From Climacium dendroides (Eukaryota; Streptophyta; Bryopsida; Hypnales; Climaciaceae), in assembly GCA_950106755.1 (NCBI GenBank), contig OX467092.1, positions 3,038,001-3,102,000 on the forward strand: a stretch of DNA of 64,000 nt. Direction: 5' to 3'. A program made the position numbers and the translations under genes. The notes below the pieces were generated by a model that was given only the letters and a program-made list of their open reading frames with translations, did no database searches and was not told where the DNA came from. Numbering within the stretch: the stretch's first letter is position 1; every line of letters begins with the position of its first letter. Positions 8,841-47,321 of this stretch are shown piece by piece.

Positions 8841-9185
8841 CTATGCAGAAATCGAACTGCCCTCACTGTCTGATGCCTGTAAATCTGATTGTATTGCGAA
8901 TTCATCTATAAAGTTAAGAGCACGTGGGTCAACTAGGTGGGCCCTAGCACGTGGTTTAGGATTCTGGGCAACAAATTCGTGAGCCACTGCATCAGCATAC
9001 ATGGGAAGAGTAAATGGCTTCGGTGGACTAGGAAAGAATTGAGGATGAGAAAAGAAAGGGACATTGGCTACAGTTGTCACGCTGTGGGCTTGCCTGAAAA
9101 ACCAAGTTATCCACATGTAAGTCGGACGGTTAGAAACTGATGTATTTCATCATGCGAAGAGGAAAACAGTCACAAGATGACTTAC

Positions 9186-11821
9186 TTACGGAATCTAGTA
9201 GTCTTCACAATAGCTTGGACGGGGACTTCGTCTTCATCCATATCGACTGGTACATTAGCCGGTTTAGGTGGGCACTAGAAGAAAAAAGGGGGTTCTGCGA
9301 CTACGCTACGCAACTGGTTTTTCAGTTGCATCGGACATTTGCGACTGGATTGCAACTAGTGATAATTTGGAATTTTGTAGTCGCAGTGGACACTCTAGAA
9401 TCTAGGAAACGTTTGTAGCAATACACCTTGTCTGTGACTCATTTGCAACTTGTTTGCAACTTGTAAATTTGTAGATTATTAAAACATTAGTCTTGATGAT
9501 TTGTAGATTTCGAAATTTCAAATCTACCTTTTTCTAGATTTTAGGATTTCAAATCCGCCTTTTTGTAGATTTTAGGATTTTAAATCTACTTTTTTTCTAG
9601 ATTTCTAAATTTCAGATCTACTTTTTTCAAGATTTTAGAATTTCAAATCTACCTTTTTCTAGATTTCAGAACTTTTGAACTACCTTCTTCCTAGATTTCA
9701 AAAATTCAAAAATTGGTATTTAATAGATTTCATTAGTTTAGGAAACTTTACAATTTTATAGATTTTAAAATTTCTTAATCTTCAATTTTTAAAAAATTTC
9801 TATTGGTTGTAGAATTTTGTATTCTATAGAATTCTAAATATTGTAGAAATCTACAAACTGTAGAAATCTTAGAATTCTACCAATACAATTCATTGCATAA
9901 GACAACAATAGCTTACAAGTCTTATATGTCCAACTTTAAGGTACTCTTGACAATAGATATGGGACAACTGAGATACTAAAAAATGATTAAGAAGCAACTA
10001 AGATATTGAAAAACAACTAAGAAACAACTAATGTATGACTTAACAATGACTAGGAAGCAACTAAGACAACTAATGTATGACTTAAAAGTGACTAGGAAAC
10101 AACTAAGACAACTAATGTATGACTTAAAAGTGACTAGGAAACAACTAAGACAACTAATGCATGACTTAAAAGTGACTAGGAAACAGCTAGTTTTACTACT
10201 ACAAAACTCAATTTTTGATTGATTTCAGCAGATAAGTGAAACAAATCTATACAATCAAATCAACAAAATAGTTAAATTTTCTAAGAGTGTAAAATGACTA
10301 AAAACCAAATGGCCAATTTCATTAAAATGGAGACATTCCATTATTTGGCACTTTTAACAGTTTAGACTGTACAATCTGAAATCTATATCCATCCTAGATT
10401 TCTAAAATCTATAAAAGTCCTAGATATCTAAAATCTAGATTTTTACTAATTTTTTTAAATCCCGTAGTCTAAAATCTATATTAGTCCTAGATTTTTGAAA
10501 TCTATAAATGTTCTAGATGTACATAATCTATATTAGTCTTAGATGTCATTTTGCAATTGAAAACCCGCAGTTTGAAAAATTGCATAGAGAAATATAGAAA
10601 GCTACCATTTTAATGAAATTTGCCATACAACTAAAGTACAACTAGAAAGCAACTAGGAAACGACTAGAAAATGACTAAGAAATAACTTTGGTCATTTTAT
10701 AGTTGCAATTTTTCTCTAATTGTTTCCTAGTCATTTTTACAACTATAGATTGACTACTTTGCGACAAAAACAATAATATAAAACAATTAAATTAAATTTG
10801 GTGCAAATAGAGAGGATTTCAGTCGCATGATAGTTGTATAGGACACTAGTTGCAGAACGGCCGGTTGTGGCGGACACATTTTTCTTCTAGTGGGGTTAAG
10901 GCTGGGACTGACGACCGTGCGCATAATTGGAGCAATAAGTGCATCAAAAATAGCCTTATCCTCCTCGAATGCAAGAATATGTCGCAGTGTGGCACGGTAA
11001 GCTTCGATGGTTGCACCTAAAGACATGAAATAAGTCCAAGGAAGTGGACAAAGGAAAAACCACCAAGTGCTTTAATTCATGATCATGACAATGACAAGTT
11101 TATACCAAAGTACCTATAGCGGCTGTGCAATCGACTACAACGTCCCCTGGTTTGCTGCATACTTCCACAAGCATCTGCATGAATTTCCGAGATTTCTCTC
11201 GAGGTCCTCTCCATGGTATATCTCCATTTATGGTGACGTCATTCTTGTTGCAGAAATTCTGCAGAATGTCATCCTTACCCACATTAATACCCACAACATC
11301 GTGGGATTCCACGTATTGGAAGGGGTAGTCATCCTCGGACTTTGGTCCGTTCTCTTTTACAACGAGAGATATGGAGAACCGCATAGTCTGCAACAACCAA
11401 GAAGTGAGGATTAAACACTATTTTAGAAAATCATTAAAGCACACATAGAAGACGTGGGGAAATACATTACCGTCTTAGTGTTGTCTGCTAGAGACGTTAG
11501 ATGAAGGCGGTTCATGCCGAACCATGTCCGTAGTATCTTGAATTTGTATCCTTGGCAACAACCAAGGAGTTGGCTTCTGTGGGCATGAGAGAGGGCAGGA
11601 TATATTATGAGAAGACCTCCATAGTCATGGAGGTATACTTCGGCAAAGTCAAAGATTGGCACTAACCAATCATCTGCAAACACGTTCCACTTTGGTATAG
11701 GTGCAGGAAGAGTTGAGAGTGTGGGAATATGAAGGCCTTCAGGAACATCCACAATGACCAAGTCCACTGCAACCTCACGCTTCAAGACTCCATTGAAGAA
11801 GCGTTGTTTGTCACTCGAATG
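9186..11821 (-). CDS. Exons 9-11: N6/N4-type DNA methyltransferase-like core
   Basis: Exon 9 reads VDLVIVDVPEG, then a long loop, then YLHDYGGLLIIYPALSHAHR. Exons 10-11 then join to read KPGDVVVDCTAAIGATIEAY, followed by RHILAFEEDKAIFDAL. This is the permuted (beta-class) order, with motif IV before motif I: a DPPY-like strand (here DVPE), then PGD-VV-D-x-x-A-x-x-G-A-T for AdoMet binding, then an acidic strand end. Known family members methylate adenine N6 or cytosine N4. The aromatic residue of DPPY and the usual DPF.G.G motif are altered, so activity is doubtful. The motif I coding sequence spans an intron (GTACTT donor after 11114, TAG acceptor before 11016). Exon 11 is interrupted by the CACTA-like element. 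Confidence 0.65.
9500..9690. repeat. About 46-bp degenerate tandem repeats in the CACTA element
   Basis: Roughly five units of the type AAATCTACCTTTTTCTAGAT recur with substitutions and small indels. They occupy a subterminal position, as such repeats often do in CACTA elements, where transposase binds. That role is inference. Confidence 0.6.
10026..10193. repeat. 42-bp tandem repeat, four units
   Basis: Units begin at about 10026, 10068, 10110 and 10152, each starting AACTAATGTATGACTTA. The 42-bp period keeps one frame open (14-residue units of the type MYDLKVTRKQLRQL), but this is a by-product of period length, not evidence of coding. Confidence 0.85.
10311..10624. mobile_element. Small TIR element nested in the CACTA element
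   Basis: The left end GGCCAATTTCATTAAAATGG matches the inverse of the right end CCATTTTAATGAAATTTGCC. The interior holds several CTAGATnTCTAAAATCTATA-like words. The same family appears at 43846-44162, and one arm lies at about 2679. Its presence inside the CACTA element dates it as a later insertion or as cargo captured with it. Confidence 0.65.
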
Positions 11822-11953
11822 TTGCAGGAAAACATGAGGGATAAGTAGAAACACAGTATAGGCACATAGAACTTCAAAAGGGAGTTGATGAAATTGCAGT
11901 AGTATGTGAATGATAAAAAGAATTTATAAATGATGGTCTTGCTTGAAACGTAC

Positions 11954-13925
11954 CATTGAAAGGAACGCATTCACGTCATCAAATGATTTCTTCTGACTTG
12001 GTAAAGCGGACAATGACAGGTTCAATATGCACTCGTCTACATCATGAACAGGGTAGTGAGAGGACGGAGTGAGTCTGTGGACCAAGTGCTCTTGAGTAAG
12101 CGAAAAGCCTGATGATCCTTTTTTCACCTCGGCTGCACTTGTAGCTGGTTCTGGGTTTGGGGTTTCAGCCTTCCTCTTGGTCCCCTTTTTTTTACCCTTC
12201 TCTTAGGCCTTCTCAGATTGGGTGGCCTGTCGCTTCTTTCTGATGTCGTTGAACTTCTTCTGTGCTTCTTCAAGCTTCTTGTGCTTCTTCAAGCTTCTCG
12301 TGCTTCTTCCTATCAGAGACCTCCCGCCTTTGGATGCATCTTGCTCGCATCTCTGGATCAAGATGAGCAAACTCATCGAACTTAGCATCAACAGTAGCGG
12401 CATCCTTCAAGGTCTGGAATAGAGCCTCCTCCTCTGGCGGAGTAGTCCCAAAGATGCATTCTATATACCAAGGACACACTTGCAGATGTGGACTTGTCCA
12501 CTTTGTCCACTGCATGGGAGAAAACATGCAGTCCAGAGAAGACCGATCTAACCAAGTAGTCAAAAACGGTGGTAAATCTACCTTCGCAATTGCCTTCTTG
12601 TTGTATAGCTCAAACTTGAAATACCTGCGTCCAATGCAGGATTAGTTAGCTACCTTTATAAGAATAAGTGATTGTACAATAAACAAGGCACAAGGACAGT
12701 GTATTGGACCCTCCAAATATGATTACAGCATGGTTGTCCGGAAGAGCCGCAATGCCAGAAGAACTCCTACACAAGGTTAGACACCTGTAAATCACACGCT
12801 TCACAACCAGCGCCGACCCTCTGAAATCCTTGAAGCTGTCCGACTTCTTGAAGGGGTCAGCACCCTTGAAAACACCGGTGAAAGCAATATCCCAAAGCTT
12901 CATCCTCCAACTCTCAATGTACTCAAGTAGTGTCATTGGTTTGCTTGGAACGCTCATATTGATTGGAATATTGTCAGCCCGAACGATTGATTCGAACATG
13001 TCGTTGGCTGACTCTTCAATCTGAAGAAGTAAATGTAAACACATTGAGGCCAAGTTGTGCAACACAGAATGTGAAATAGTAATGCATTAAATACAATAAT
13101 GAAACCATGAGATATAACCCTTACCCCAGCATACTAGCACACCCTAGTAAGAAATTGAGTCAACCTCTCCTCATTCACAGGACGAGGTGGAAATTGGCGA
13201 GCCTCACGGGAGGGACCAAAAGCATTCATCCACTTGAGCCACCTGACTTTTAATTCCGGAGACACGTTGGCTGTTGCAATCAACTGTAACTTTTCTAGAG
13301 TCAACTCAGGAACATCAAAAAGGCTCCAATGTCGCTCTATTTGCATCAAGAAAATGAAAAGGCATCGTCAGTGAAGAAGAGACAAATGGATGAAGAGCAA
13401 AAAGCTGAACCAATGGTTTCGTGAAAATACCTCTTTCAACCAGTCAAGTCCCAATGCCGGATTTGCAACGGCTACAATCTTCGAAAGCTTCTTGTATAGC
13501 TTCTCCGTAGAATCCTTAATTGATGCTCTCATAGCCAGGGCAACACCCTCTCTTGTAACCTCATCTTCAGGCGTATCCTCATGATATTTTCAGACTGCCG
13601 CATCAGCAGCTGTGGCTATCTCTTGCTGAACAAACATAGGGGAATCCACATAAGTTTTCAATAGAACGCATGATACTAACTTGGAGTGCTTCATGAAATT
13701 TGAATATGAGTTACTGTTACTGATCACATCCATACTTTAAAAATAAACGATGTGAAGACATCCAAGGGCATAGAATACCACGACTTTCGTGTATTCTGTT
13801 GACATTTTGCCTTCTCCTCAGGACTCAGCAATTCATGAAATTTCTCAAGCTCAAGTAATCCATACTTCTGGACGCGGTAGAGTGTATGAACCAGGTTGGT
13901 TTTGACATGCGAGTTCTCGATATGC
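11954..13925 (-). pseudogene. Exons 4-8: linker region, three stops and a frameshift
   Basis: These exons encode helical, charged sequence with no recognised domain, including HTLYRVQKYGLLELEKFHEL (exon 4), LKVRWLKWMNAFGPSREARQ (exon 6) and a Lys/Glu-rich stretch rich in KKHEKLEEAQ-type words (exon 8). Exon 5 has TGA where the frame is otherwise open (13590-13592). Exon 6 has TAG near its end (13134-13136), unless a weaker donor just upstream of it is used. Exon 8 has TAA at 12203-12205 and an exact 19-bp tandem repeat (12261-12279, 12280-12298). Removing one repeat unit restores the frame into the later part of the exon, which ends at the donor GTACGT. Confidence 0.6.
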
Positions 13926-14046
13926 CTGCAGTAAATAATAATTTAGGATGAACCTGAGAAGTAACTCCAGAAAATAGAGCATTGTTCAAGAAAAGTATTC
14001 TGATAGGTGACTGCAAACGATGACAATGAGGTTGGTGTAAACTCAC

Positions 14047-14693
14047 TTGTTAATATCGTGCATTGCTTGCATTGCAACTCCAATTCGATGCCTTGTGTCT
14101 AGGACTATTGAGTCTACACAAATGTGCCATTCACGATCTGCTTTGTGGAGGCGCTCAATGTGATTCATCCAGGCGATTCGTCTATGATTCCCATCGCAGA
14201 CAAAAAACTTGTAGTCCACCAAATGCTTGAGGACAGTATGCTCAAGCTTCTCGTTGAATTCATCATTCACTGCATTCCATGTAGGTCTCCATTCTTTCTT
14301 CTCAGCATCGGTAAATACTGCCATCTCACCCGCCTCATTCGATACTGAGACATAGAAGACTCTTGCGCCCTCCTCATATCCCCGACTGAATTGGTTCTCC
14401 AACAACGTCAAATCGCACGAGAGTGTAGGCCGTACCATGGGCATTGAAACTAGACGACATAAAGGTATCTTCAATCTTGATTGGTCACTGGATGTCAATC
14501 TCAAGCTATGAATGATGGACACAATGTCCACCGTCTGCGACTTCCGAATTTCGTCTTCCATGTAGTGCGGTTGAACCCCAGGAATTGAAATCTCTGAGGC
14601 TTCACCGTCGTCATCCTCCCCGACACCCCTAGGTGCAGGAGCCCTAGCAGTCATAGACAATGCTCTTGGTGGGGATTTCTGGGATGCAGGCTC
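14047..14693 (-). CDS. Exon 3: ParB/sulfiredoxin-like domain
   Basis: After an acidic linker and a helical stretch, the translation reads IPLCRLVSMPMVRP, then a variable region, then YKFFVCDGNHRRIAWMN and WHICVDSIVLD. This follows the ParB-fold order: an IPL..I...P.R-type strand, then a G-x-HR motif (here DGNHR) at the start of a helix, then a final hydrophobic strand. In bacteria the DGxHR segment is part of the nucleotide-binding/catalytic site of ParB, Noc and related nucleases. Exon 3 begins after CAG at 14694-14696 and ends before GTGAGT with two bases of a codon, which exon 4 completes. It contains no stop. Whether it bound CTP, acted as a nuclease or only served as a fold cannot be told. 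Confidence 0.65.
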
Positions 14694-15419
14694 CTGTGTA
14701 TTGAAAAAGACAACGGAGTTGCAATTGTCATATGAATTTCACATACAGATACATTGAGAAATATATTGTAATGTTCATTTGTAAAGGACATCATGATTAT
14801 CAATCAGAATGATTTAGAATGGAATATTATAGAGAGATTAATTTATGAAGTTAACATCATCAAATACATGTCCACAAACCACACTCTCTAGTGACAATAA
14901 TGTATCTCCCAAATCAATATTGGATGATATCCTCTGGGGTAGTTAGCCTAGATGACACATCATCAGCAAATACAAGTTCCTGGTCCCCGAATCCAACGGA
15001 CGTGCAGCATGACTTTGAAGAATCCGACAACCCCAAACTCTGTAGGTCATCTACTCCCTCATTAAGTTCGCGAATCAGATTTTGAAGATCGTATGGTACC
15101 CTTGGCTGCTTCTCTCGGAAATGAATGTCGGCATCTATATCTGGGACTTGAATCTCCATGGCCGCAAGAGTAGGATCTTGAACATTCTGAACTTCAACAA
15201 CGTTCTCATAACTTTCAACCTGGAGATGGAAATAATTAGAATATTTATATAAGATGGACAAACAATATTCACAACAAATCGATTAAGAAACTAGGATTCC
15301 AGAACTTTCGGTGAAGGGTTGCAAATTATAACGGGCCGACAGCCCATGGGAGCCGAGTCAGCATATTTGACAAATGAAGACGGGAGGATGCATAATTCAG
15401 CAATCAGTTCCTTAGCAGG

Positions 15420-17330
15420 GGCAAGAGTTGTCCGTGACCAGAAACTCATGCTTGGCCCGAACCCTGTCGGTGGAGTCTCGGTCCCGAGAGAGCGATCTGC
15501 GGTGCAATATCATGCACGATCACTAGTAGAAAACGCAGAATTTCTGTTGTTTCGGTGACGTTGTTTTGGTCACCGAACAACAAATTTCTGTTGAAATTTA
15601 CAGAAATCTGTAAATTTAAGCAGAAATTTGTTGTTCGGTGACCAAAACAACATCACCGAAACAACAGAAATTCTGCGTTTTCTACTAGTGGATTCGGTGT
15701 ACTATTTTATCCAAGCCTAAAACTCGGCAGTGCAACCCCTAATTTGTACAAGCCAAATTAATGAAAGTTCCAACTCGGTACAAACGAAAAAAAGATGCTA
15801 GAGGAGTGATGAATGGTTTTGTTTCCATTAATCATGCATGGACCCGAGCGGTCAGATGTTATCTCGGTCTCGAGAGAGTGTTTCTGAATGAGGAGGTGTG
15901 CATGATTTCAGTGAACCCACGGAGTGTACAGGTAGGCAGGCTACAGGTATGCAAGCTGAGATATATATGCTTGGCCCGAACCTTGTAGGTGCCATCTCGG
16001 TCCCGAGAGAGGGATCTGGGGTGCGACGCCGAGTACGATTTGTTGTTCTGTAATATGCAAGCCTATACCTCGTCAGGGCAAGTAATCATGCATGGCACCG
16101 AGTTGTCAAGTGTTCTCTCGGTCCCGAGAGAGTGTCTTTGAATGACGATGCATGCATGATTTCGAACAGGATCCCATTGATGCCCTAAACATAAAGTCTC
16201 GGGATCCCAGATTTGATGAGGGATACAAACCCTATGTTCTGAGCGAGGGGTGGATGGAGAACTCTTGATTCAGTGAACCCTCAGAGACTACACGGAAACA
16301 TGCTACAGGTAAGTCTTCTCCAAGTAAGAAAGCTGAGAAATCTATGCTTGGCACAAACCCTGTCGGTGCCGTCTCGGTTCCGAGAGAGGGATTCGGGAAA
16401 AGATGCCGTGCACGTTTTGTTGAACTATATTATGCAAGCCTATACCTCGGCAGGGCAACTAATCATGGCAGATCTCGACAGGGCAACTTATCATGCATGG
16501 TACCAAGCTTCCAACATGGACCCTAAAATCACGAATGTCCTGACTCGGTAGAAACGAAAGAAACATGTTGGAGGAGTCATTATTCATGCATGGCACCGAG
16601 CTGTCAGGGGTTCTCTCGGTCCCGAGAGAGTGCTTTTGAATGTGGAGCCATGCATGATTTCGATCACAATCCCACTGATGCCCTAAATGTGAAGACTCGG
16701 GTTCCCAGATTTGACCAAGGATACAAACCCTATATTTTGACTCAACGCAAGCGAGGGGCGGAAGGAGAACTCATGATTTGGTGAACCCTCAGGGACTACA
16801 CGGAAACATGCTACCGGTAAGCCTTCTAGGATCTTGCAGGCTGGGAAATCTATGCTTGGTCGGAATCCTATCGGTGCCGTCTCGGTCCCGAGAGAGGGAT
16901 CCGGGGTGCGATGCCGTGCACGATTTGATGCACTGTATTATGCAAGCCTTATCCTCGGCAGGGCATACCTCGGCATGGCAGACCTCGGCATGGCAAACCT
17001 CGGCAGAGAACCTAAATTCACGAATGTCCTGGCTCATTAGAAACGAAAGAAACATGCTGGCAGAGCAAGTAATCATGCATGGCCCCGAGCTGTCAGGGGT
17101 TATCTCGGTCCTAAGAGAGTGCTTTTGAATGAGCAGGCATGCATGATTTCGAACTAGATCCCGCTGATGCCCTAAACGTAAAGTCTCGGGCTCCCAGATT
17201 TGATCAGGGACCCTAAACCCTATTTTCTGATTCAACGCAAGCGAGGGGTGGAAGGAGAACACTTGATTCGGTGAACCCTCAGGGTCTACAAGTAAGCATG
17301 CTACAGGTAAGCAAGCTGTGAAATATATGC
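15420..17330. repeat. About 500-bp tandem repeat array in intron 1
   Basis: Two landmark words alternate. Type A is CTCGGTCCCGAGAGAGGGAT near 15475, 15986, 16370 and 16878. Type B is CTCGGTCCCGAGAGAGTGCT near 15862, 16112, 16612 and 17101. This gives three to four higher-order units of 400-500 bp with internal deletions. The landmark core CTCGGTCCCGAG is a near palindrome. ORFs up to 188 codons cross it, but they follow the repeat and look non-coding. Confidence 0.7.
15521..15690. mobile_element. 170-bp CACTA-type foldback MITE
   Basis: The element is a nearly perfect palindrome with ends CACTAGTAGAAAACGCAGAA and the inverse. It is flanked by GAT on both sides (15518-15520 and 15691-15693), a 3-bp target duplication. 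It lies in intron 1 of the minus-strand gene and within the first unit of the local tandem array. Termini and target length place it with CACTA elements. Confidence 0.9.
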
Positions 17331-17483
17331 AAGACCCCCGTCCCTCGAGTGACACTGAAGCATTCTGGTGATACCGTAGTTACGAAAGAGGTTTAGGGTT
17401 CTAGGCTTGACAAACCGTGACAATCCGGAGTTGTTATGAAGTTAGTATAATCCGACATGCAAGTATGTTGTGCTTCAGCGTAC

Positions 17484-17573
17484 CTGGGCTACGGCGGCGG
17501 CGCTTTCTTGCGCAAGTGGCAGCACAGTATTGTCTCCGGCTTGATTTCTTCGCGGACGCAGAACTTGATCCAT
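17484..17573 (-). CDS. Proposed first coding exon of the ParB-methyltransferase gene
   Basis: An ATG at 17571-17573 opens 30 codons starting MDQVLRPRRNQAGDN. They end exactly on a codon at GCCCAG followed by the donor GTACGC. The next proposed exon starts on a codon after CTCCAG at 15220, so the phases fit. The intervening intron of about 2.26 kb would be occupied by the tandem array and MITE. The assignment rests on splice signals and phase only. Confidence 0.45.
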
Positions 17574-19037: not shown

Positions 19038-19900
19038 ATGACAGGATCTTCAATGGCAATTGTGAGGGCACATGGAGAGTGTGTTCCGATCTCATTTCCT
19101 GTGGGCGAGTTGGGATATGCTGTTGTCAGTTCGTCTCGATTGAGTGCCCGTTTCCAACTTGTGGAGAACTCATTAGATATTGACGAAGAAGTATTTGATA
19201 ATATAAGTGGTGACTTGACGCATACTATAGGGCAAGAGCCCTCTGTATGTGGCCTTGTTAGGCAATGGCATTTGCGTGAAGGTAGGTATTTAACATATGG
19301 ATTACCGCAGTCCTGTGCAAGAGCATCCAATGCAGAGGGATCCGCTAGAGTTTCTAGGACTAGTATTTTCGAGAATACTATGAAAATTGAGTCTGGTGTG
19401 GAGGTGATTACCATTGGAAGTGATGACTCTGATGGTTCATCTCCACCCTGCAAACTTCTGAAACCGACATCCTTGTCTGTAGTTGGTAGGGCGTACTCAT
19501 CCTTCTCGCCTTCTACAGATACAGTGACACCATCATCATCATCCCGTGCGTCTTCAATTGTTTCATGTTTGCAGAAGCTATGCCACACAAAAGGTTCCAG
19601 GAACCCGTTCAAGAGGGTCAATTGGAACTCAATTAGAATATGTAGTGTCCAATTTGTTCCACCTTCATTCAATGGCGATGTGATTTTTGAGTTACTACCC
19701 GTCAAAGATGTTTCGGGAACTCACAGTCAGGCTAAGCTTCTCACTGGAATGGAGAAACGCTATGATGGTCACGTTTGGACAAATCTTCATACGACAAATA
19801 TAAAAAATGCAGACGGCCTGACATTTCGGTTGGCGTCTTGCGTGGGCCACCTACAATGTGTCAACCCGAGTTGTGACTATCTAACTCGAAAGCACCGTGT
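19038..19900 (+). pseudogene. Truncated protein with a Cys/His (CxGHLxCxNxxCDYL) motif
   Basis: The frame is open from well upstream of the first ATG at 19038, so the true start is probably an upstream exon. The N-terminal half is Ser-rich and acidic. The C-terminal part reads KRYDGHVWTNL, then ASCVGHLQCVNPSCDYLTRK, whose paired cysteines and histidine look zinc-binding. I associate this signature with repeated, transposon-linked plant proteins, from memory. Directly after LTRKHR the sequence turns into the CGTCCG-type array, and the continuing frame is low-complexity Arg/Asp/Gly. The gene therefore seems cut off there. A minus-strand ORF overlaps it but lacks such motifs. Confidence 0.45.
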
Positions 19901-19901
19901 A

Positions 19902-20260
19902 CAGGGTTGTCGTGGACGTGTGTCCGCGGCGAAATTGCGTCCAAAATCGGACGTCCTGACGTCCGCCCGTCCGGACCCTGTGGACGTAGACGGACGGTCC
20001 TCGGTCGCCGTCCTGCGGGCGGACGAACGGACGGATTGGCGGATGGGCCGGTCAGACTGGCGGACGGGCGGGCGGACGGACGGCCGTTTTTATTGGTGGA
20101 CGGGCAGACGGGCCAGCGGACGGATGGGCGGACGGGCGGACGGATTGGTGGACGGGCGAGCGGACGGATTGGCGGACGAGAGAGCGGACGAGCGGACGAG
20201 CGGACGGGAGAGCGGACGAATTGGCGGACGGGCGGACGCGCGAACGGTTCAAGGGCCAAG
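19902..20260 (-). promoter_or_regulatory. CGTCCG-type GC-rich array (1 of 5)
   Basis: Dozens of GGACGG/GGCGGACG words occur on the plus strand (CCGTCC on the minus). The left edge starts with CAGGGTTGTCGTGGACG, which resembles a hAT-type terminus and abuts the truncated plus-strand gene. In the orientation shared with the other arrays it would face a minus-strand gene below 19.9 kb, but none is evident. It could instead be the distal end of the hAT element. No inverted partner of the CAGGG end was found. Confidence 0.5.
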
Positions 20261-20640: not shown

Positions 20641-23600
20641 CTAGGGGTGGTAATCACTATCTCCTTTCACCTCTGCCCCGCTATTGTACTCTCTTGATTG
20701 GAATCCATCATCTTCATCACTCATGGTGTTCTCTTCATCGTCTGATGAAAGTGTTTGAGTTTCCCCTCTTTTCTCTTGTACTGTTGAAGATACACGAGCT
20801 TTCTTAGGCTTGCCCATCATTTGCTCGTTCTTTGCTTTCATCAAGGTTTTCCCTACACATTCACGAAGGCGATCAACCGCTTTTCCTTTTCTCAACGGAA
20901 GTTCTGGAATAGACGGACGCTTATCAAGGGGGGGTTTTCCTGCATTCACTTTCTTCGTTGGAGAGATAGCAAACGGCTCTATTACTCGTTTGTTCTTTGC
21001 TTTAGTGGGTTCTTCCATCATCATTGCCATCCCTGCCTTTCTCCCTTCTTCAGTGAATGCCTCTATAGCATTTGAAGATTCTAGTATCGGGTCCGCTAGC
21101 CTTGTTGAAGATGCTGGTAGGCGGTTTCCTTGCTTCTTTAACATTGAGGCCAACGTCTCATCTTCCTCGTCATCGGTGAATGAACAAATCTGCAATCTTC
21201 GATTTTCGGTACGTTCTATTTCTTTCGAAATGATGGAAGCTCGTGTTGGACGTTGAGAACTTCATGAACCCACCAAAGTAATGCTTACACTATTAAATAG
21301 TGAGCGTGCACCTATTGGAGGAATGCTACGTGGTGGACGTACAAAACTTGTCATGTTTTCCTTTGTGCCTTGGCCACTGTGAAGCAAGTTCGGACTTCCA
21401 CATTCTATCAAATGCGAACGTACATTGTCTTGTGTCCCACTCGCTTCATGGTTTAGGCTACTTGGTTCCCCATTGCTTTTGCTTGCCAATCCTCCTAGAG
21501 ACTCCACACTTATCTTGTCCACATTCATTTGCTCGCGGTCCTCAACGTTGTCATTCTTTTCTAGTTGGGCCACCACTATGGATGGAGACCTACCGCTTCC
21601 AATCACTTCATCTATTTCGGAAGTTCTAGCATTGGATGCTATGGTTCCATTAGAAGCTAGGACTGGACATTTGCGTCCTCTTCATTTAGATTGAGGACCT
21701 TGTCACTACTTAGAAATCGGTTTCCATCTACAAACCTTGCTATGGAAGGTACGCCTTCGTCGTTTCCACAATCATTATCGTCCATTGGAAAGTCGTACTC
21801 GTCTCGGTCATTGTTGCCCATGTCATTATCATCCATATTTACTCTTCCAAACGGTTCACCTCCAAAATTGTATGTATTGCCATCAAAATCTTCTTCATTG
21901 AATATTGGGTCGTACCAATTTGCTTCTTGTCCATGTGCTTCATTCCCGTCCACACGAACACCTTCTTCTTCATCTTCACTGCTCTCATCATCTTCGTTTG
22001 GTCCCTCCGATTCTTCTGAATCTACATTTTCAAGGTACCACTTCTTCTCATCCCTCTCCTTGGATGCGGCCAACACTCTTGAATTAGTGTACACATACAC
22101 CAAATCCGCAACTCTCTTTGTTCTCAACTTATTTCGAGATTTGTTGTGAACAAAAGAATAGCTACTCCAATTCCGTTCACATGAAGATGAAGATACCGGT
22201 TGGCCCAATATTCTCCTTGCAATTGGAGCAATGAGCTTCCCACATGCGCCTTCAAAATCCCACCAAGCGTGTGCCGATAATTTTTGTTCACTTGGATTCA
22301 ACATGTTGTGGAAGGGAGGCTCCCTATGTCGAAACGCCATGAATTCCTTGACGACGTCCGCGTAGTCCGTAGGTTTACATATTCGCATGAGAACACGCTT
22401 GCATGCTTCGGTGGCCTCTAAATCGTCGGCTAGTTCTTTATCGTGCAAAAGATAGGGATTCAAAAGAGCTCCTGCATATTGGAGATCGGTCTCTACCATT
22501 TCCCATCTAGCGTTGAACACCTCCTTCAATGGTTTGGCAAATTCGGGGCTCAATAGAAAAGGCGGATTTTCTAACCCCCCCACATGTGACCGTATCTTCC
22601 TCATAATATGCAAAACTTTCCCTAAACATGGCGTCTTTGCATCTAAATCACGAAGGCCATACACAACAACGCCCATCAACTGCACAAAATTCGTGCAACG
22701 CCTCCAGAAATGCTCATTGTTTATTATCTTCTTTGTACACCGAGACTTTGTACGGTTCTTCTTTTTCTTGTCATCCAACGTCTTCACATATTGTTCCCAA
22801 CGCGGATCTGTCACACTCTGTTGAAGTGCTCCCTTAACTTTCAACAAGCGTTCAAGCGCAATGAAATTTGAAGCAAATCTTATTTCGCCTAGCATCAATA
22901 AGCTATGCTCTTTTTCGTATGAACGAAATATTGCAAGCGACATGTGCCGCTTTCTAAAAAACGTAAGAACCATACGAGCTTTGGCCATGACATCCGCCAC
23001 CCATGCTTCCTTCCCCCAATCTTTTAGCAACAAATTCAAGGCGTGCACCACATAACCTTAAAAAGAAATGTGAGGATATTTGTCTTTTATGATTCTACAT
23101 GCTCGAGGGTTTACAGGAGCATTGTCCGTTGTTATTTGCACCACATTATGCGGACCCACCTCCTGTATGAATTTGTCCAAAATAGAGGCCAAGTACTCTG
23201 CGTTTTTTACGAACCCACTTGTGTCCACCGATCCCAAAAATTGCTCCCCTGCAGAAGATACAAGCATACAATTCACCAATGGCCGATTTGTAACCGAACT
23301 CCATTCATCAATAGACAAGGTTGCTCCAAACTTTCTGATACTATCCTCGGTCCTCTTCTGCAACTTTAGCTTGACATCTTCTTTCGCTTCTTCTAGTAAT
23401 TTGGTTCGTAGAGTTTCGTACGATGGTGGGCTGTATGGCTTACCAAACTTAGCTGTTTTCTTCACTGCTTCTTTGAAGGCCTCACTTCGAGCTACCGCAA
23501 ATGGTATGTTGGCTGAATAGAAGAAATTGGCCCACAACGCATTCAAATTGCGTCTATCAGCTTGTTCAAACCCATCTACTAGCCGACTTTGTCTTCGGGG

Positions 23601-24020
23601 CCGATTGATGGAAGAGGGTGGAGTTGGACATTGTTCATTTGATGTTTCCACACTTTGATGTACCCTTGAAGACGCACGATGAATTTCAGACGGCGCTGCA
23701 CACGAGTCCTCTTGTGTTGAACGTGAAAAATCCCTTCTATTTGAAGCATTGCTTGCAACCCTCCCTATGTTTTCACCATCTACATTGTCAAGGGCCGATC
23801 TTCGTGGAAATAACCCATTACAACCGGCAAAAAGAGTTCGAATTGACGAAGTCAATTTTAGACATATGCTTATCCCCCTGTCGCGAACACCGTCTTTGCC
23901 TTTATATCCAAGGTGGCTCAACATGCGACACTTCCGATTTGCAAACACCAAGTCACATGCCTTGCACTGCACTTTACCGCTTGATGGAACAACATACCAA
24001 CCGGAAAAATCCTTACTCAT
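20641..24020 (-). pseudogene. hAT-superfamily transposase, degenerate
   Basis: An ATG at 24018-24020 opens a frame of about 1,120 codons. The N-terminus has a BED-type finger (VQCKACDLVF...MLSHLGY). Next comes a DUF659-like region: FGATLSIDEWSSVTNRPLVN, FLGSVDTSG, VGPHNVVQITTDNAP, with the expected Asp residues. Near residues 570-640 is the hAT dimerisation region (WWDFEG, RRILGQPVSSSSCERNWS, KSRNKLRTKRVADLVYVY). A long acidic, low-complexity tail follows. Damage: TAA at 23058-23060 in the middle of the catalytic region, a frameshift near 21660, and TGA at 21262-21264. The protein would cut and paste its own element; as it stands it is inactive. Terminal inverted repeats and an 8-bp target duplication were not identified. 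A CGTCCG array lies about 320 bp upstream of the ATG. Confidence 0.88.
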
Positions 24021-24337
24021 TGTGGAAAGCTCCGTTCAAGTTCAAGTCCAAGTTCAAGTTCCAATCTTGTCTTCAGTTCCAAATGTTTAGGTTCAAATCA
24101 CTATGTCACATGTATCAAATATAGTCTGTAAGCAAAGCCTTGGAAACCAAAGCCCCCTTGTCCACTGAACTATGCATTACCAAGCAAGGGACACAAAGAT
24201 TGCAGCTCCTAGCCCTTGAAAATCTTAGCGTTCAGTTTCTCAGAAGTGCTTGTAAATGCCTTCTTCCTTGCTCTTATACTCCTAATTTGTTGAATGTTCT
24301 ATGCCTTAGAAGTAATCGTTGCCAACGGTCAGAAAAC

Positions 24338-24960: not shown

Positions 24961-27900
24961 TCACAATTACTTCAACACACTATTATCTTCTTCGACATCA
25001 CGAGATGTCCCCTCCCTCGCCATGAGTCTTCTACTTGTTCGACGAGGCACCGGTTGCGGACTATTTCCATGGTTGCTCCCTCCGTGGCTAGCTTGTACCT
25101 GCATGTCAACCCTCTCAAATTGTCGTTTGGTTTCCGGAGAGTGGTCATCCTCCTTTTCAATCTTCCGTTTATTCTTCTTCTTCGGAGAGAGCTCCACTTC
25201 GTGGGCCCTCAAAGCCCTCACAGCACAATCTATGTCATCCATCAGTTGTTTTATCATTTCATCCTCGCTTTTCATCATCCAAGTTTGTTCGCCTCCCTCT
25301 CCTAGATACTTCCTCCACTTGGTTATAATGTCCTTCATGTTCATGTCAAATGCCCTTGCAACGTCTTCCATCTTATGCTCTGTAGATGATTTACCGTTTA
25401 GGTCCACCACAGAACGAACTCTTGCTGCTTCTTCCAACTTCGACAAAATGAGGGCCCGCCCTATCAAATCTGTATTGTAGCCCGCAAATTGCTTTAAGAC
25501 TTTTGGATCACGCTCAACCTCCACCAAGAGGTCATTTGGACCCTCTCTCTTCCATTTCTTCTCGGAAATTCGAAAGAACTTTTGGTGTTGTGTGCTCCAA
25601 TGTCCGCCCATGCTGCGACAGAACAACTCTCGAGCTTTGCTGTTCTTAATCTCGAAGGCACGCAACTCAACCTCCACGTCAGACGTCATCCAAAAGAATT
25701 TATCTTTGGTGGGAAATGGGCCATCGCATAGCTCATATATTTGTAATCGAGCATCCCACTTCATTGGTTTCCCCCAATGCAAATAGTTCTGAAATTTGTA
25801 TGGCTCTTGGTCAAGTGGAAGGTTCCATCGATTGTATTCGTGCCCCGTAGGCATACGGTACAAAATCCCTAGCATTTCATACAGCCTTGAACTCAGAGGA
25901 ATACGGCATTCGGGACAACGGCGTTGAAATTCCGCCGATCTTTGAATGCAAAACACATGGAATGTATGGCGACACTGTCCCAATACTATAGCTCCTTCGG
26001 GCCCAAAACAACCTTGGCAAAGAGAACAATGACCCTCCAAGATGGGAGTATTTGGAAAACTTCCTGGCACAAGCTCCTTTTCATGTTGTTGGAAGTGAGC
26101 TGACAACGTGCCATAAGGGACCCATCCTTCCTCCGCTTCCAAAGTCCAATCAATGTTCTCCGTATCATAGGTCTTTCCGTGGTTTAGCCGCTTATACATC
26201 CTATCCATGTTCCCCCAAACCGTAAGTTTTAAATCAGGGTCCTTTCTTTCCTCCTCCAACTTCTCCACAAAATGCTCATAAGAACTCTTGACATTCTCGT
26301 ATGCTGTGTCTGATTGCAATGCATACCTCAAGAGCCCGTTCATGAGTCCGGATGATACTGAAGAATGATCTTGTAGTTGTCGTGCCCACATCATCCACCG
26401 TTAATCCGCATTTTCCTTTGGAAGGATTTCACTTAGTACCCCTACTTCCATCATTCGTTTCATTGTTGATTCGGCCTCATTCTTTCCTCGAACTGCCAAG
26501 TCCAATTGATGCCTTAACTCTTCAACTTCCGGATTTAGTGATTGCATGGAAGCATCTTCAAATGAGGGGAAAACTATGGATTTTGGACTCGGAATGTGCT
26601 GTCGAAATTCTACAGTCCCATCCTCAGCTTTGCCCTCGTCAAGAGGAAGAGATAGTTGATCGCTCTCTTGTGTTGGTTCACTTGCCTCTAATAGCCCTAT
26701 TCCGCCAGGCGATTGTTGACCTGCCTTCTCGTTCTGTAATGTCCACAATGTTTTGCGATGCTCTTCTAACATCTCTTTGCATGTCTTCAACTCCAACACC
26801 AACTTCTCATTCATAGCCTTGAGATTCTCATTCATGGCCTTCAAATTGTCATTCGTTCGCTTCAAAGTCTTGTTATTTTTCTTGACACTCTCATAGTCAT
26901 TACCCAAGGGCTTCAAGTTTGGGGTCGGCCTCCAATACAATGTGTTGTATTTGCTCTCCAATATCTCATACTTTGCCTTGAGGTCATCATGATCTTCTTT
27001 GGAGTAACGCACCTCCTTCAACTCCAAATTCTGCTTTTCCAAAAAAAATTTATGCTTAAGGTCTTCCAACTTCTCGTCTTGTAGTTTGTCCACAAACTCG
27101 ACAAACTTTCTGAAAGCCAAAGCACCATGAAGAACGGATGGTGTCATTTTCGTAAATGTATCAGTTATTTGCGCAAGAGCAGGCGTCAATACAACCACAA
27201 CTCTAGCTGTACATGATAGAGAATACGTCGTTCTAAATATCTCGCCAAATCCTGATGTTGAATTGCCTGAAGTGGAGCTGCGTCCTTCATTTGTAGTGCC
27301 ACCTTCTGTCGCAGTACAGAGTAAGCAATTTCCCTATTATACTTACAAAAATCACCCTAGAGCATAACAAAATGACCCTAAAGATCGAACCCACGAGATC
27401 CTGTGAAGTAGCTAACTCTAACAAGGAGATAAACCCAATTAAATCCTTTTATTCTACTTTTCCGGTTCTACCTCTGACGACCGGAATGTCAAATACCAAC
27501 CGGAAGACTACGACCGGATTGTATCCTACTTCCGGTTTCACTAGTTCCCCGGTCTCTGGACTGACTTCTGAATTCTGGACCCTACAACTTCCGGTCCTAT
27601 GTACCCTCCTGGGCGGATCTGATCCGGTCTACCCTTCCGTACCCGGTTTAGCTTTACCTCTGTTTTACCATCAGAGGGTTCGCCGCTTGCTTTTGAAAGT
27701 GGTAGGCCCACCACTCCTTCCGTGACTTATAGTGGCTGAAGACCCACTTTCCTATCCACTAATCCCCTAACTAACACGGATCCGGTTTGGTCCTTCACAG
27801 TAATCCGGATAGCAACCCGAATTACAGGTCACACAAAGACCCCCCGTACGATCCTCTCATACTACAACGACCTTGACGCTAGTCCGATCCGTACGAAGTT

Positions 27901-37442: not shown

Positions 37443-38861
37443 ATGCCGAAGGCAAAGAAGTCTTCCAAGGAGCCGAAGGGAAAAGAAGAAGCCCCCTCTA
37501 TTCAGTGGACAAGGGAGAATCCCTCGGAGAGTTGCAAAGCATTCTTAATCAAATTGATTGTGAAGTTTTATGAGACAGAGACTACAGTGTCTCTTGACAC
37601 TAAATATGTGCGATATGAAGAGGACTGCATCGAGAAATTCTTTGTGGATATGAGGCAGAGGATGTTGGACGCCTTGCACGTACCGTAGTGGATTGATGAA
37701 ACGGAGAAGAAGAATTTCCCCAAATTTCTTGACAGCAAGGTACATGATGCATTATGGAATGCTTCAGTCATTTTGGATAAATATTGGAGGAGGAAACGCG
37801 AAAATGATGAAGCCTTCGAGCATGTCATTATGAAAGCGGATTTATTCACCAAAAGGTGCCAACCATTTAAGAGGAGGCAGAATAGAGTAGAGTCAATTGG
37901 TTGGTGGACGAGCAAGCTTGGAATGGACCAAGCACAAAATACACGTCGCCTTCTAATAGCCCTTCCGGAAACGGCCACGGTGATTCCCGTAAATAACAAA
38001 ATCATGCGGGGTGGCTATGCTACAATTCAGAGAGTGCGAATAGAAGGATGTGCGGAGATTCATCCATCATAGGAGTTTGCAGCAAAGATGTCTCTCCAAG
38101 AAGGTGAACGACCTGCTTTTGCAAAGATGGAACACAATACTGAGACTATGGCAGTAAGGATTTCGCATGTTGGAGTGATACGTTTTTTTGCAGTGCATTC
38201 CAAAAAGAATGAAGGATACTCATTCTGGTGGAACGGCGGTACATTGCGTGAAATGATGCGTCGGGATGACGACTATCCAGACAACATAGCCCTTCGAGTG
38301 CTGTATGAGCCGTGTAGAACAGAAAAAGAAATCATTGCTGCTAAAAATCTGAAGCGATTTAGAGCCAAATGCGTGGAGCTTGCATGGGCATTACTGCACA
38401 TCATGAATGCGGTGCACACCGCTGGACATCTCCACAACGACATTTCTCCGGACAACATCATGTTTCATTTTCCTGAAGATGAGTCCCGGGTTTACATTGG
38501 AGTTTGTGATTGGGGGATGACTATAGTGTTGAGCGAGTCCATGAAGTCGTTGTATACATTCACATCAACAGCTGAAAAGGACGAAGCTATAAAGAGGAGG
38601 TGGTGGGTGGATCCCAATATTACTTATGTACACGGAAGAGATGCGGATGTGCAAAACATCCCTTCTCTTTCCATGCAATCCAAGCAATATGCTGTTGCTA
38701 AATTAGCTGAACGGATCAGTAGGCAGTGCATGTCAGAGGCGTATCATAAGTTGCAGCGTGAATCAAGTAGCTCACATGTCAAGTACCTCCATCCACAATT
38801 TGCACAGGTGTTTGATACTTACTTGAAGCGCGTTCAGAACAAAGAGAGTACTTTGGCATAA
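37443..38861 (+). pseudogene. Kinase-like protein (HND / DWG variant), with two TAG codons
   Basis: One frame of 473 codons starts at ATG 37443 and ends at TAA 38861, broken only by TAG at 37686-37688 and 38070-38072. The first 170 residues are helical with no known domain. A protein-kinase-like fold follows: a glycine-loop-like IMRGGYATIQRVRI, an EFAAK that would be the VAIK lysine strand, HNDISPDNIM in place of HRDxKxxN, VCDWGM in place of DFG, and a WWVDPNITY in the position of the APE segment. The catalytic Asp and Asn and the metal-binding Asp are present, but HRD and DFG are altered. The second TAG lies just before EFAAK. Intact relatives may be active or pseudokinases. As it stands the gene is broken. 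Confidence 0.65.
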
Positions 38862-41457: not shown

Positions 41458-42325
41458 GCACTTGCAGGTTCTCTGATGGTTCTGAAGGTCCCCGACTGAA
41501 CCTCCAGAGCTCTAAAATCGAGGACTGCTATAGAAGATCCGCCTACACAGAAGAGTCTCCACGGACACGGACCACCGTGGTCATCCCATGCCTCCATGAT
41601 TTTCTTGAAGCAAGTACGCATGAATCAGTGAGTTCTTATGACGAATGGAATCGACGATATACATGTTGTGAACCTCATTCACTGTGTTCCCGAAATCGTT
41701 ACCTTCTTCCACTCCATTCCGGTAGCACAGCTCGGGATGGTACTGCAGCTGACTCCCGGGGGTCCACTGGTTCCATGGAATCGAGTGCCGCAGCAGAAAC
41801 ATTGGCAGCAGCATTTGTGGTGTCTTGTAACTCAGTTACCGTGTCCTCAGATCTGGATACAATTCGTCCAACAAATTCTACACTTCAGCTTCATGAGTTT
41901 GAATACCAACAGCATTCGTCAATTTCATTAACTTGTGACACACATCCACAATTTCACAGAAACACTAAAAACCAGGATAGATATAGATATACAATTCATG
42001 CGGAGTGTCTTGTAAAAAGGGACAACTTAATGGAATACCGCCCATATATATTTAGAGATTGACTTGAACTATCACTAGGTAATCAATCAGGGTTCTGCAG
42101 TACTCTCTACTGTAATTCTTGCCTACCTCTCCACAATGACCGCATCGTTCGTTGTTACTGGATCCATCTTCAAACTTATTGATTGACAACTGCGCTCTTC
42201 CCCCTCGTCACAGATCTGCTCTCGTTGTGCTCACTTGAAATCAACTCTATTCCACGGATTACTGGATTACTGTCAGCAGGTACAAAAACACAACAACCCC
42301 GAGTGTAGAAGCAGCAGTTAGCACC
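41458..42325. repeat. Diverged duplicated segment, copy 2
   Basis: This is the partner of 105-1335 and is immediately followed by the tandem array. Relative to copy 1, the length changes in the conserved core (about 41665-41935) are 3 and 6 bases. Plus-strand (GSTGSMESS) and minus-strand (IPWNQWTPGSQLQYHPELCY) readings are both conserved, so the coding strand is undetermined. Confidence 0.6.
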
Positions 42326-43736
42326 ACATGACCGATGAAGGCGTCCCAACGATGGACTCATCGGCGGGGGCTCCGTCTACAAAACAAGAATTCGATTTGG
42401 ATTTGTGGACAATCTCCACGTTTGCAATAACAACCAATTCTGAACAATTCCTGATAATGAGCCACCAGCGGTAAACCTGTCACTTTGATTCTATAATCCT
42501 CCGAGGTCAGAAGCTCACCCGGATCGCAAATGAAGGCCCGCTTGGAATACTGGACAACACAAGAGTTGCAAACAGCGCGGTTCGTTCTCACTGTCCAAGC
42601 CCACCGAGAGTTTCACGCTGAGAACTGTTTGCACGCACAAACAAAGAAACAGCACTTAACACCACATGATCGATGAAGTCGTCCCAGCGATGGACTCATC
42701 GGCGGGGGCTCCGTCTTCAAAACAAGAATTCGATATGGATTCGTGCAAAAATCCTCATGTGAAAAGCAATGTTCCACCTTGGACAATCTCCACGTTTCCA
42801 ATAACAACCAATTCTGAACAATTCCTGATAATGAGCCACCAGCGGTAAACCTGTCACTTTGATTCTATAATCCTCCGAGGTCAGAAGCTCACCCAGATCG
42901 CAAATGAAGGCCCGCTTGGAATACTGGACAACACAAGAGTTGCAAACAGCGCGGTTCGTTCTCACTGTCCAGGCCCACCGAGAGTTTCACGCTGAGAACT
43001 GTTTGCACGCACAAACAAAGAAACAGCACTTAACACCACATGATCGATGAAGTCGTCCCAGCGATGGACTCATCAGCGGGGGCTCCGTCTTCAAAACAAG
43101 AATTCGATATGGATTCGTGCAAAAATCCTCATGTGAAAAGCAATGTTCCACCTTGGACAATCTCCACGTTTCCAATAACAACCAATTCTGAACAATTCCT
43201 GATAATGAGCCACCAGCGGTAAACCTGTCACTTTGATTCTATAATCCTCCGAGGTCAGAAGCTCACCCAGATCGCAAATGGCAAATGAAGGCCCGCTCCC
43301 CAGATCGCAAATCGCAAACGAAGGCCCGCCTGGAATACTGGACAACACAAGAGTTGCAAACAGCGCGGTTCGTTCTCACTGTCCAAGCCCACCGAGAGTT
43401 TCACGCTGAGAACTGTTTGCACGCACAAACAAAGAAACAGCACTTAACACCACATGACCGATGAAGTCGTCCCAACGATGGACTCATCAGCGGGGGCTCC
43501 GTCTACAAAACAAGAATTTGATTTGGATTTGTGGACAATCTCCACGTTTGCAATAACAACCAATTCTGAACAATTCCTGATAATGAGCCACCAGCGGTAA
43601 ACCTGTCACTTTGATTCTATAATCCTCCGAGGTCAGAAGCTCACCCGGATCGCAAATGAAGACCCTCGTGGAATACTGGACAAAACAAGAGTTGCAAACA
43701 GCGCGGTTCGTTCTCACTGTCCAAGCCACCTACTGA
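42323..43736. repeat. Four-unit tandem array of 290-414 bp units
   Basis: Units begin with ACCACATGA at 42323, 42661, 43035 and 43449. Unit 1 and unit 4 lack a 36-bp block that units 2 and 3 carry. Unit 3 has an extra 40-bp internal duplication around CCAGATCGCAAAT. On the plus strand each unit opens with ATG and keeps about 48-60 codons open (ending TNSEQFLIMSHQR) up to CACCAGCG followed by GTAAAC, a possible splice donor. The minus strand is also open (LLTSEDYRIKVTGLPLVAHY). It could be a multiplied first exon or a minisatellite. Confidence 0.75.
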
Positions 43737-45951: not shown

Positions 45952-47321
45952 CTGAACAACCCTATCCTTGGACGATCCTCCGAAGAGCTTCTCTCCAGGA
46001 CGAAAGAGGTTTTGCTTGCGAATTCGTGTCACCAGTGGGACTGGGTGCTAGGGGTTGTGAACTGCGACCATCAGTGGTCGTCATTGTCGCAACATCAAGG
46101 CTCCCACGTCTCGCAGATTGCAGCAAGCTTGGGGGTGAATTACTACCAAGTAGAGACGACTTCCCCTGTCCCAGGCGAAGGCCTCGTGCGCACATGGCGG
46201 TAGGGCGTCTTGCAACGGATTGTGCTTCGGCATGGGTACACGTCGATTGCCACGGCGCACAGCGCGAGCGACCGCGTGGAGACTCTACTCTACAACCTCT
46301 CCCAAGGCTCGGGTCTCCACGGGCTACAGTCGTTAACATGGAAACGCATGTTATCACCCGTGCTGTCTCTCACTCACAGCGCACCATCCACGCCAACAGG
46401 TATCCTTAAGTTTCTTCAATTGTGACCCCCGAGGAAGGAACTTTCAAACTCAACAATGAGGTTGCCCTCGTGAGACCTCTCCTGGGGATTTCAAGAACCG
46501 AGCTCCGAGAGTACTGTGACCGATTAGGGTTACCCTTGTGGCCCGACGCGAGCAACATGTCGCTCGAAATTAACGGCAACCGCATCCGCCTTGAGCTCCT
46601 CCCTTACCTGCGCGCGATCCAAACAGTGCCAAAGGAACCCCTAATTCCTCGTTCATCGCGAACACCTCTCTACCAATGCTGCAAGAAGTATGCAAGAAAG
46701 TGTAATCCATGTCCAGGAAAGAAACAAAGAAGCCTCCCTCTCCATCTTGAGACAGTAGTCTCCAATTTCATTTCATCTCCATTGAACAAAACTCCTAAGA
46801 AGGCGATATTCGATCCGATCAAAACCGTGCCAAGCAAGAAGTCTGCAAGAAAGTGTAATCCACGACCAGAAAAGAAAGAAAGAAGCTTCCCTCGCAATCT
46901 TGATAGAGTAGTCTCCAATTTCATTCAACTAAATTCCTAAGAAGGCGGTAACTTACTCAATAAGGGTTCCGTGGATAAATCGCTGGCGCGGTGTGCGGAG
47001 ATTCTTCACGCTGAAGAGCAGTACCTCGACAGCATCTGTGAGAGCATCTTGAGAAAGGCGGAGACCGAGGACGGGGATGGAAGGAAACTTGACATCGGAG
47101 TCGTGCAATCGTTGCCCGTAGCCTTGCAACGTAGAATGCTGAAGCAACTTGTGGAGAGTTTCACGGGGAGATCGTTAGGGTTTGATCACGTGGAGCGCTT
47201 GCGAGGTTCCTACTCCCTCTCCGCTGACCCTCAAGACGGTGTCAACCTCGCATTGCCTGGGAATGCGACTGTGCGAGTACTGAATCCGCACTTCCGTCTG
47301 ACGCACGCGAAGCAAATGTAA
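45952..47321 (+). pseudogene. tilS: tRNA(Ile)-lysidine synthase-like pseudogene (cyanobacterial/plastid type)
   Basis: TilS converts the C34 of the CAU-anticodon isoleucine tRNA to lysidine, using ATP. Recognisable blocks in order are: LGVVNCDHQWSSLSQHQGSH, [48 protein letters not shown], then in another frame LVRPLLGISRTELREYC, SNMSLEINGNRIRLELLPYL, and later VDKSLARCAEILHAEEQYLD and LPVALQRRMLKQLVE. The [12 protein letters not shown] wording is that of cyanobacterial and plastid (ycf62) enzymes. The N-terminal SGGxDS ATP loop is not found. Damage: TAG at 46201-46203, a frame change near 46400, TAA at 46938-46940, and an inserted Lys/Arg/Cys-rich stretch with an internal repeat (ARKCNP...VVSNFI twice). 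Two frames make an active product unlikely. The frame change could be a degenerated intron. Confidence 0.8.
46640..46940 (+). repeat. About 165-bp duplicated insert inside the tilS-like sequence
   Basis: Two similar copies (about 46685-46785 and 46845-46930) share GCAAGAAAGTGTAATCCA, TAGTCTCCAATTTCATT and CCTAAGAAGGCG. They separate ELLPYLR from the VDKSLARCAE block, which are nearly adjacent in normal TilS. The insert is therefore an acquired or expanded segment. Confidence 0.6.

Follow-up and report, generated by a model that had tools for sequence, protein, structure and literature searches.

A 64,000-nucleotide stretch of the genome of the moss Climacium dendroides (contig OX467092.1; C41:3038001-3102000), hereafter the window, carries on its minus strand a broken, decayed copy of a spliced gene in which ParB-type motifs are joined to a DNA methylase-like half. 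The genome of 412.6 Mb in 123 contigs was searched for relatives of this gene, and the copies were sorted by identity into four groups, with A, which takes in the window copy, at about 85-96%, B at about 70%, C at about 64-68% and D at about 52-58%, and with a few intermediates. In group C the gene is part of a sharply bounded mobile element that also holds a divergent partner gene, and arrays of the palindrome TCTCG-N4-CGAGA lie mostly between the two. The original prediction, made from the letters of the window, had described the spliced gene and its motifs, both of which stand; it had overlooked the broken state of the gene, a fragment of the partner gene at 19053-19889 and the palindrome array at 15476-17119. 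The following features were placed:

8844-17573, minus strand: ParB-motif/methylase-like gene of group A, broken, about 12 exons (from splice sites and moss alignment)
14047-14693, minus strand: exon with the ParB-type motif (CDGNHR), holding KFFVCDGNHRRIAW (from moss alignment and genome matches)
13736-13925, minus strand: exon with the HVK stretch, after the ParB-type motif
13431-13625, minus strand: exon 5, with an in-frame stop where relatives have a sense codon
11954-12624, minus strand: exon 8, a charged linker carrying a frameshift and a stop
11471-11821, minus strand: exon 9, with DVPE at the position of methylase motif IV
11114-11387, minus strand: exon 10, with motif X and the first part of motif I
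9190-11016, minus strand: exon 11, with the remainder of motif I, split by a CACTA-type element
8844-9093, minus strand: last exon, a C-terminal tail not present in the moss proteins
9273-10892, no strand: CACTA-type element of 1,620 bp in exon 11, with GGG on both sides (from the letters)
15476-17119, no strand: array of TCTCG-N4-CGAGA inverted repeats (from a pattern search)
15521-15690, no strand: small self-inverted element with CACTA ends, within the array region
19053-19889, plus strand: N-terminal part of the divergent partner gene, a likely transposase (from similarity to the left gene of group C)
19902 to at least 24035, no strand: hAT element cutting the partner gene, with its left end near 19902 and transposase frames at 21657-24035

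The exon structure that had been predicted was borne out, with the gene running from 17573 to 8844. GT was present at all eight donors placed and AG at nine of 11 acceptors, those of exons 6 and 9, which were placed by homology, lacking it; the ends of exons 2, 6 and 7 are not fixed in this model. Splicing is supported by two relatives from the moss Ceratodon purpureus. M758_1G295400 (1147 aa) matches the window gene with 30% identity over 84% (E 2.7e-99) and aligns to its exons one by one and in the same order, exon 1 having no counterpart in the alignment, and KC19_7G101700 (661 aa) has no ParB region. Protein searches for further family members returned these two proteins and no others, and scans of viral contigs and genome contigs revealed no viral or prokaryotic relatives. 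Their locus tags come from different Ceratodon annotations (M758_1G and KC19_7G), and judging from these tags the family may be mobile in Ceratodon too. The CACTA-type insertion in exon 11 of the window gene falls beyond the conserved core. From 19893-19904 onward the window sequence matches 34 other places among those listed, and the hAT transposase frames follow.

In the C-terminal part motif IV comes first, followed by X and I, as in the beta class, in keeping with the N6/N4 methylase-like core that had been proposed. The predicted succession of a DGNHR-type motif, DVPE and KPGDVVVDCTAAIG was likewise found in place: the motif IV region reads VDLVIVDVPEG near 11.76 kb, and KPGDVVVDCTAAIG/AT spans the intron 11113-11017. 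With a cut-off of 26.7 bits for the N6_N4 methylase family PF01555, the C-terminal half of the window gene scored 23.5 bits (E 6.1e-5) and a group D copy 25.1 bits, both below it; a moss protein (P0001, 30.4 bits), a B copy (27.3 bits) and C (28.0 bits, from letters combined from two C copies) scored above it. Profile searches of the PDB matched entry 5hfj, an adenine methylase entered under the name DpnA (E 3.5e-4), as well as CcrM (E 0.005), and tblastn with the moss protein against phages gave weak matches to the methylase part (best listed E 7e-5). Motif I retains the D and the last G, and an acidic residue was placed by eye at the cofactor pocket. At motif IV, DVPE is shared by the window and one B copy, while eight C copies have DLPE and one D copy has DCQE; the catalytic (D/N/S)PP(Y/F/W) is thus absent from the A to D copies read, and the two moss proteins keep the aromatic residue (DTPF, DQPY).

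In the N-terminal part, DGNHR was present in five of five members compared and was followed by HVK. Equating these stretches with ParB boxes was done by eye, and the ParB reading of this region is drawn from the motifs. The ParB-region exon alone matches the 1147-aa moss protein at E 2e-33, so this resemblance is not due to chance. The DGNHR region of one D copy (L059) gave a weak match to DUF1015 (E 0.044), below the cut-off; PMC12704722 mentions a domain of DUF1015 type among the fusions of the ParB fold.

The search of the genome for paralogues, which the original prediction had suggested, gave at least 221 matches to the ParB-region exon, a lower bound, with 150 of 1567 first-look candidates scored. 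Seven listed B copies with identical score lie on five contigs. Many A, B and C matches contain a stop that probably represents an intron donor read through beyond the end of the exon, since the exon itself is stop-free in group C copies. Nine C copies were fetched together with their flanks. Eight of them share a single unit with sharp boundaries, 13.1-14.1 kb in length; in the ninth, the match is confined to 2.4 kb. The shared unit starts with CAACGACGCTAGTTTGTGAGCC in most copies and ends with its imperfect inverted counterpart, giving terminal inverted repeats of about 50 bp, and target duplications of 9-10 bp were read from the letters at the C elements (exact in 6/8, with one mismatch in 2/8). 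It holds two divergent genes, the partner at the left and the ParB-methylase-like gene at the right. The earlier suggestion that a large eukaryotic mobile element could carry the gene as a passenger was thus confirmed in these C elements; that of a domesticated gene found no support, given the many dispersed copies and the decay of the window copy.

The left partner gene encodes about 990 aa once its frames are joined. For 988 aa of it, Pfam gave nothing relevant at E<=1 and the PDB no match, and it is likely to be a transposase on account of its position, the element ends and the reading of its sequence. Its remnant in the window matches the C left gene in two stretches, 19569-19889 at 53% identity (E 1e-29) and 19053-19328 at 33% (E 5e-9). 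The family PF10551, the transposase of Mutator-like elements (MULEs), gave 41 matches in the genome, none of them inside the elements examined. Since no MULE domain was found in the partner gene, the element is not classed with the MULEs, although its ends are of Mutator type and its target duplications MULE-like. On contig C38, eight closely similar A-type exon copies (L022-L027, L030 and L031; C38:16094722-16785377) lie 76-117 kb apart in strictly alternating orientation, which resembles a large inverted segmental array.

Exact copies of TCTCG-N4-CGAGA occur in the window at 15476, 15862, 15995, 16116, 16372, 16614 and 16880, and a degenerate one at 17103. All seven exact sites fall within 15476-16893 and none elsewhere in the 64 kb, against an expectation of 0 for the window from 100 shuffles; the shorter core CTCG-N4-CGAG has one further copy, at 29321. 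Each C element contains 10-15 copies of this core, 96 over the eight elements, against Markov means of 0.03-0.11, and none was found in the eight C flanks of 5.9-6.9 kb. The longer form is present in 94 of the 96. In C, 94 pairs of half-sites have a gap of four bases, and no other gap between 0 and 30 accounts for more than eight pairs; TCTCG ranks first of 1024 five-mers (94 pairs, the next having 10). The outer T is kept in 94/96 and the outer A in 96/96 of the C sites, and both in 38/38 sites of the A loci and 4/4 of B. The spacer differs between groups: GTCC/GGAC predominates in A, CCAC in C, and GGAC, GGCC and GCAC in B. By the gene boundaries of one copy, 89 of the 96 C sites lie between both genes. 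The remaining seven occur singly, at a distance of about 273 bases from the left end, in 7/8 elements.

Across the genome, 269 sites of a 16-bp form were counted, compared with eight for the reversed control. The 50 sites listed are all from contig C1. No more than 5 kb separates 42 of them from a listed gene copy (0.14 expected), and 12 of the 14 gene copies listed on that contig have sites. Of the eight outlying C1 sites, three show the 116-base step known from C elements and two carry an A spacer, so that the outliers may mark unlisted copies.

Because synonymous divergence (dS) is saturated between groups, ratios of nonsynonymous to synonymous divergence (dN/dS) are quoted from group C. 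Over four C pairs, which are not independent of one another, dN/dS lay between 0.07 and 0.13 in the ParB region and between 0.12 and 0.38 in the exon of motif IV; the motif X/I exon gave 0.14-0.17 and the partner gene 0.12-0.21. Seven exons of the ParB-methylase gene are stop-free in all eight full C copies (exons 6 and 7 left out), and the main exon of the partner gene is open in 6/8. Both genes are apparently under purifying selection, and the low ratios and open exons suggest that the methylase-like half is being retained despite its lost catalytic motif.

We propose, at about even confidence, that these elements form a two-gene transposon family whose ParB-methylase-like protein is predicted to bind the family's own TCTCG-N4-CGAGA palindromes and would thereby probably shield the element from silencing. 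A predicted dimer would recognise the TCTCG half-sites. As the catalytic aromatic residue is lost, the methylase-like half would more likely sense or occupy DNA than methylate it. Binding at the array would maintain expression of the element, on the model of VANC, the anti-silencing protein of Arabidopsis VANDAL elements, and the position of the array between the divergent genes fits a control of both. Each half-site contains a CpG, and the predicted binding could therefore be methylation-sensitive.

A number of observations weigh against this proposal, beginning with the ParB-like domain, for which no profile or structure gave confirmation although the DGNHR and HVK motifs are present. Pfam returned nothing at E<=1 for the ParB-region exons of the window. 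Of the two families named in the original prediction, PF01555 was recovered in the window below its cut-off, as given above; the ParB family PF02195 was without a match at E<=10 in the window and the moss, likewise in one B and one D copy, and gave none against the genome itself in a search ignoring introns. A ParB domain was not confirmed with NCBIfam, nor with PHROGs, where the best hit was a ParB-like family at E 0.25, and a PDB profile search with the ParB region gave no match. In tblastn the region matched two phage records (best E 1) and no plasmids. Alignment of five members with 11 phage ParB-type sequences by hhalign reached a probability of 0.1, and the controls, one reversed and five shuffled, 0.1-0.2. 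AlphaFold models had a mean predicted local distance difference test score (pLDDT) of 30.3 and 36.4, too poor for use.

Further points of this kind concern the sites and the selection. In the window, TCTCG (seven pairs) ranks third among five-mer pairs, after two AT repeats (21 and 20). Of the four sites in the B copy two precede the gene, and the two that follow it fall outside the space between the genes; 11 of the 30 A loci (3.5 kb each) are without a site, eight of these belonging to one cluster on C38, and none was found in 6 kb of a D copy, a stretch barely reaching the intergenic region. The two C1 gene copies without a site are D-like (53-54%). The arrays lie partly within tandem repeats and the C copies fall into two close sublineages, so neither the sites nor the pairs compared for dN/dS are independent; pairs within A reach up to 1.3 on few changes. 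Binding of the palindromes by the ParB-methylase-like protein is predicted from the letters, the partner protein could instead be the factor that binds them, and anti-silencing is proposed by analogy.

Simple autoregulation would account for part of the pattern. The protein would then bind the array to repress or activate both divergent promoters, with DNA methylation unaffected. Most C sites do lie between the genes, and half-sites that are fixed within inverted repeats recall operators. However, 10-15 sites per element exceed what a simple operator needs, and B has sites downstream of its gene; we consider this explanation unlikely. Some transposases bind repeated internal motifs of their elements, and the partner, itself the likely transposase, might bind the palindromes here, leaving other work to the ParB-methylase-like protein, such as the help in integration proposed for mudrB. 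The recurrent site near the left end of C elements would suit this, yet most sites lie mid-element, far from the ends, and the partner has no Pfam or PDB identity, which makes partner binding quite improbable.

Two other accounts fare worse. An active adenine or cytosine-N4 methyltransferase marking the element's own DNA would be in line with the PF01555 scores above the cut-off in moss, B and C and with the purifying-type dN/dS of the methylase-like exons. It is very unlikely in view of the four degenerate forms of motif IV, since the bdelloid methyltransferase N4CMT is described as losing its activity when Ser and Tyr of its SPPY are changed (PMC8885841). The N6-methyladenine or N4-methylcytosine chemistry that had been thought conceivable accordingly looks improbable in the copies read, the aromatic moss forms being left aside. 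That the palindromes are functionless satellite repeats is scarcely credible: some do lie in tandem repeats, but A, B and C share the half-sites and the four-base gap despite different spacers, and the outer bases are fixed.

The proposal of a self-binding, shielding protein also has a narrower form. In the ParABS system, parS sites are clustered inverted repeats beside a ParB-type protein. By parS-like self-recognition, a ParB-type protein with a catalytically dead methylase might read the CpG-containing half-sites TCTCG/CGAGA in the arrays between the element's genes, use the four-base spacer as a subfamily identity code and keep host methylation from closing the element; this we regard as possible but rather doubtful. 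Motif protein and clustered inverted repeats are alike in both systems, whereas here the array is in a transposon, the ParB fold is unproven and binding is only predicted.

As described in PMC5735166, the short motif to which VANC binds has accumulated in its elements by way of tandem repeats, and these elements lose methylation through VANC. The gene described here would resemble it as an extra gene of a Mutator-type plant DNA transposon with a short motif array, the binding being predicted. Anti-silencing has been shown for VANC and is only proposed here, and the two are likened by description. VANC is not known to be methylase-like. The account of Mutator-like elements in PMC6446971 gives target duplications of 8-11 bp and extra open reading frames such as mudrB; terminal inverted repeats, duplications within this range and a second gene are shared by the elements studied here, which differ in a partner without Pfam match and a second gene of ParB-motif/methylase-like type.

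Fusions of ParB and methylase are described as enriched in phages (PMC12704722) and as present in Bacillus cereus (Bce_0392; PMC5512222). Their order, a ParB-type region followed by an N6_N4 methylase-like domain, is found here as well, but the moss gene is spliced, has a long middle region (in the 1147-aa relative) and a degenerate motif IV, and shows no ParB profile link. Fungal DNA transposons are reported to encode TET/JBP dioxygenases (PMC12730594), alike in carrying a DNA-modification-type gene and different in enzyme class and host kingdom. Bdelloid N4CMT is likewise a bacterial-type amino-methyltransferase in a eukaryote, according to PMC8885841; it has SPPY and shown activity, in contrast to the degenerate motif IV of the gene within the transposon. 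In a literature search, outside which most subscription papers lay, such an element was described in none of the titles and abstracts found. If the proposal is correct, the family would add to VANC a second kind of transposon-encoded self-recognition factor, built of parts best known from bacteria and phages. It would represent a ParB-methylase-type fusion in a eukaryotic transposon, selected for despite the lost catalytic motif, and would offer a defined 14-bp site on which binding, methylation sensitivity and anti-silencing could be tested together.

Elsewhere in the window, fragments of a TilS-type tRNA lysidine synthetase, possibly a host gene, lie at 46410-47321 on the plus strand (ATP_bind_3 and TilS just above cut-off). 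An open frame of 477 aa at 24967-26400 on the minus strand has RING-type finger matches, and another at 38073-38861 on the plus strand has a protein kinase match below cut-off. A long tandem repeat with 374-bp units, its core about 99% alike, occupies 42307-43730.

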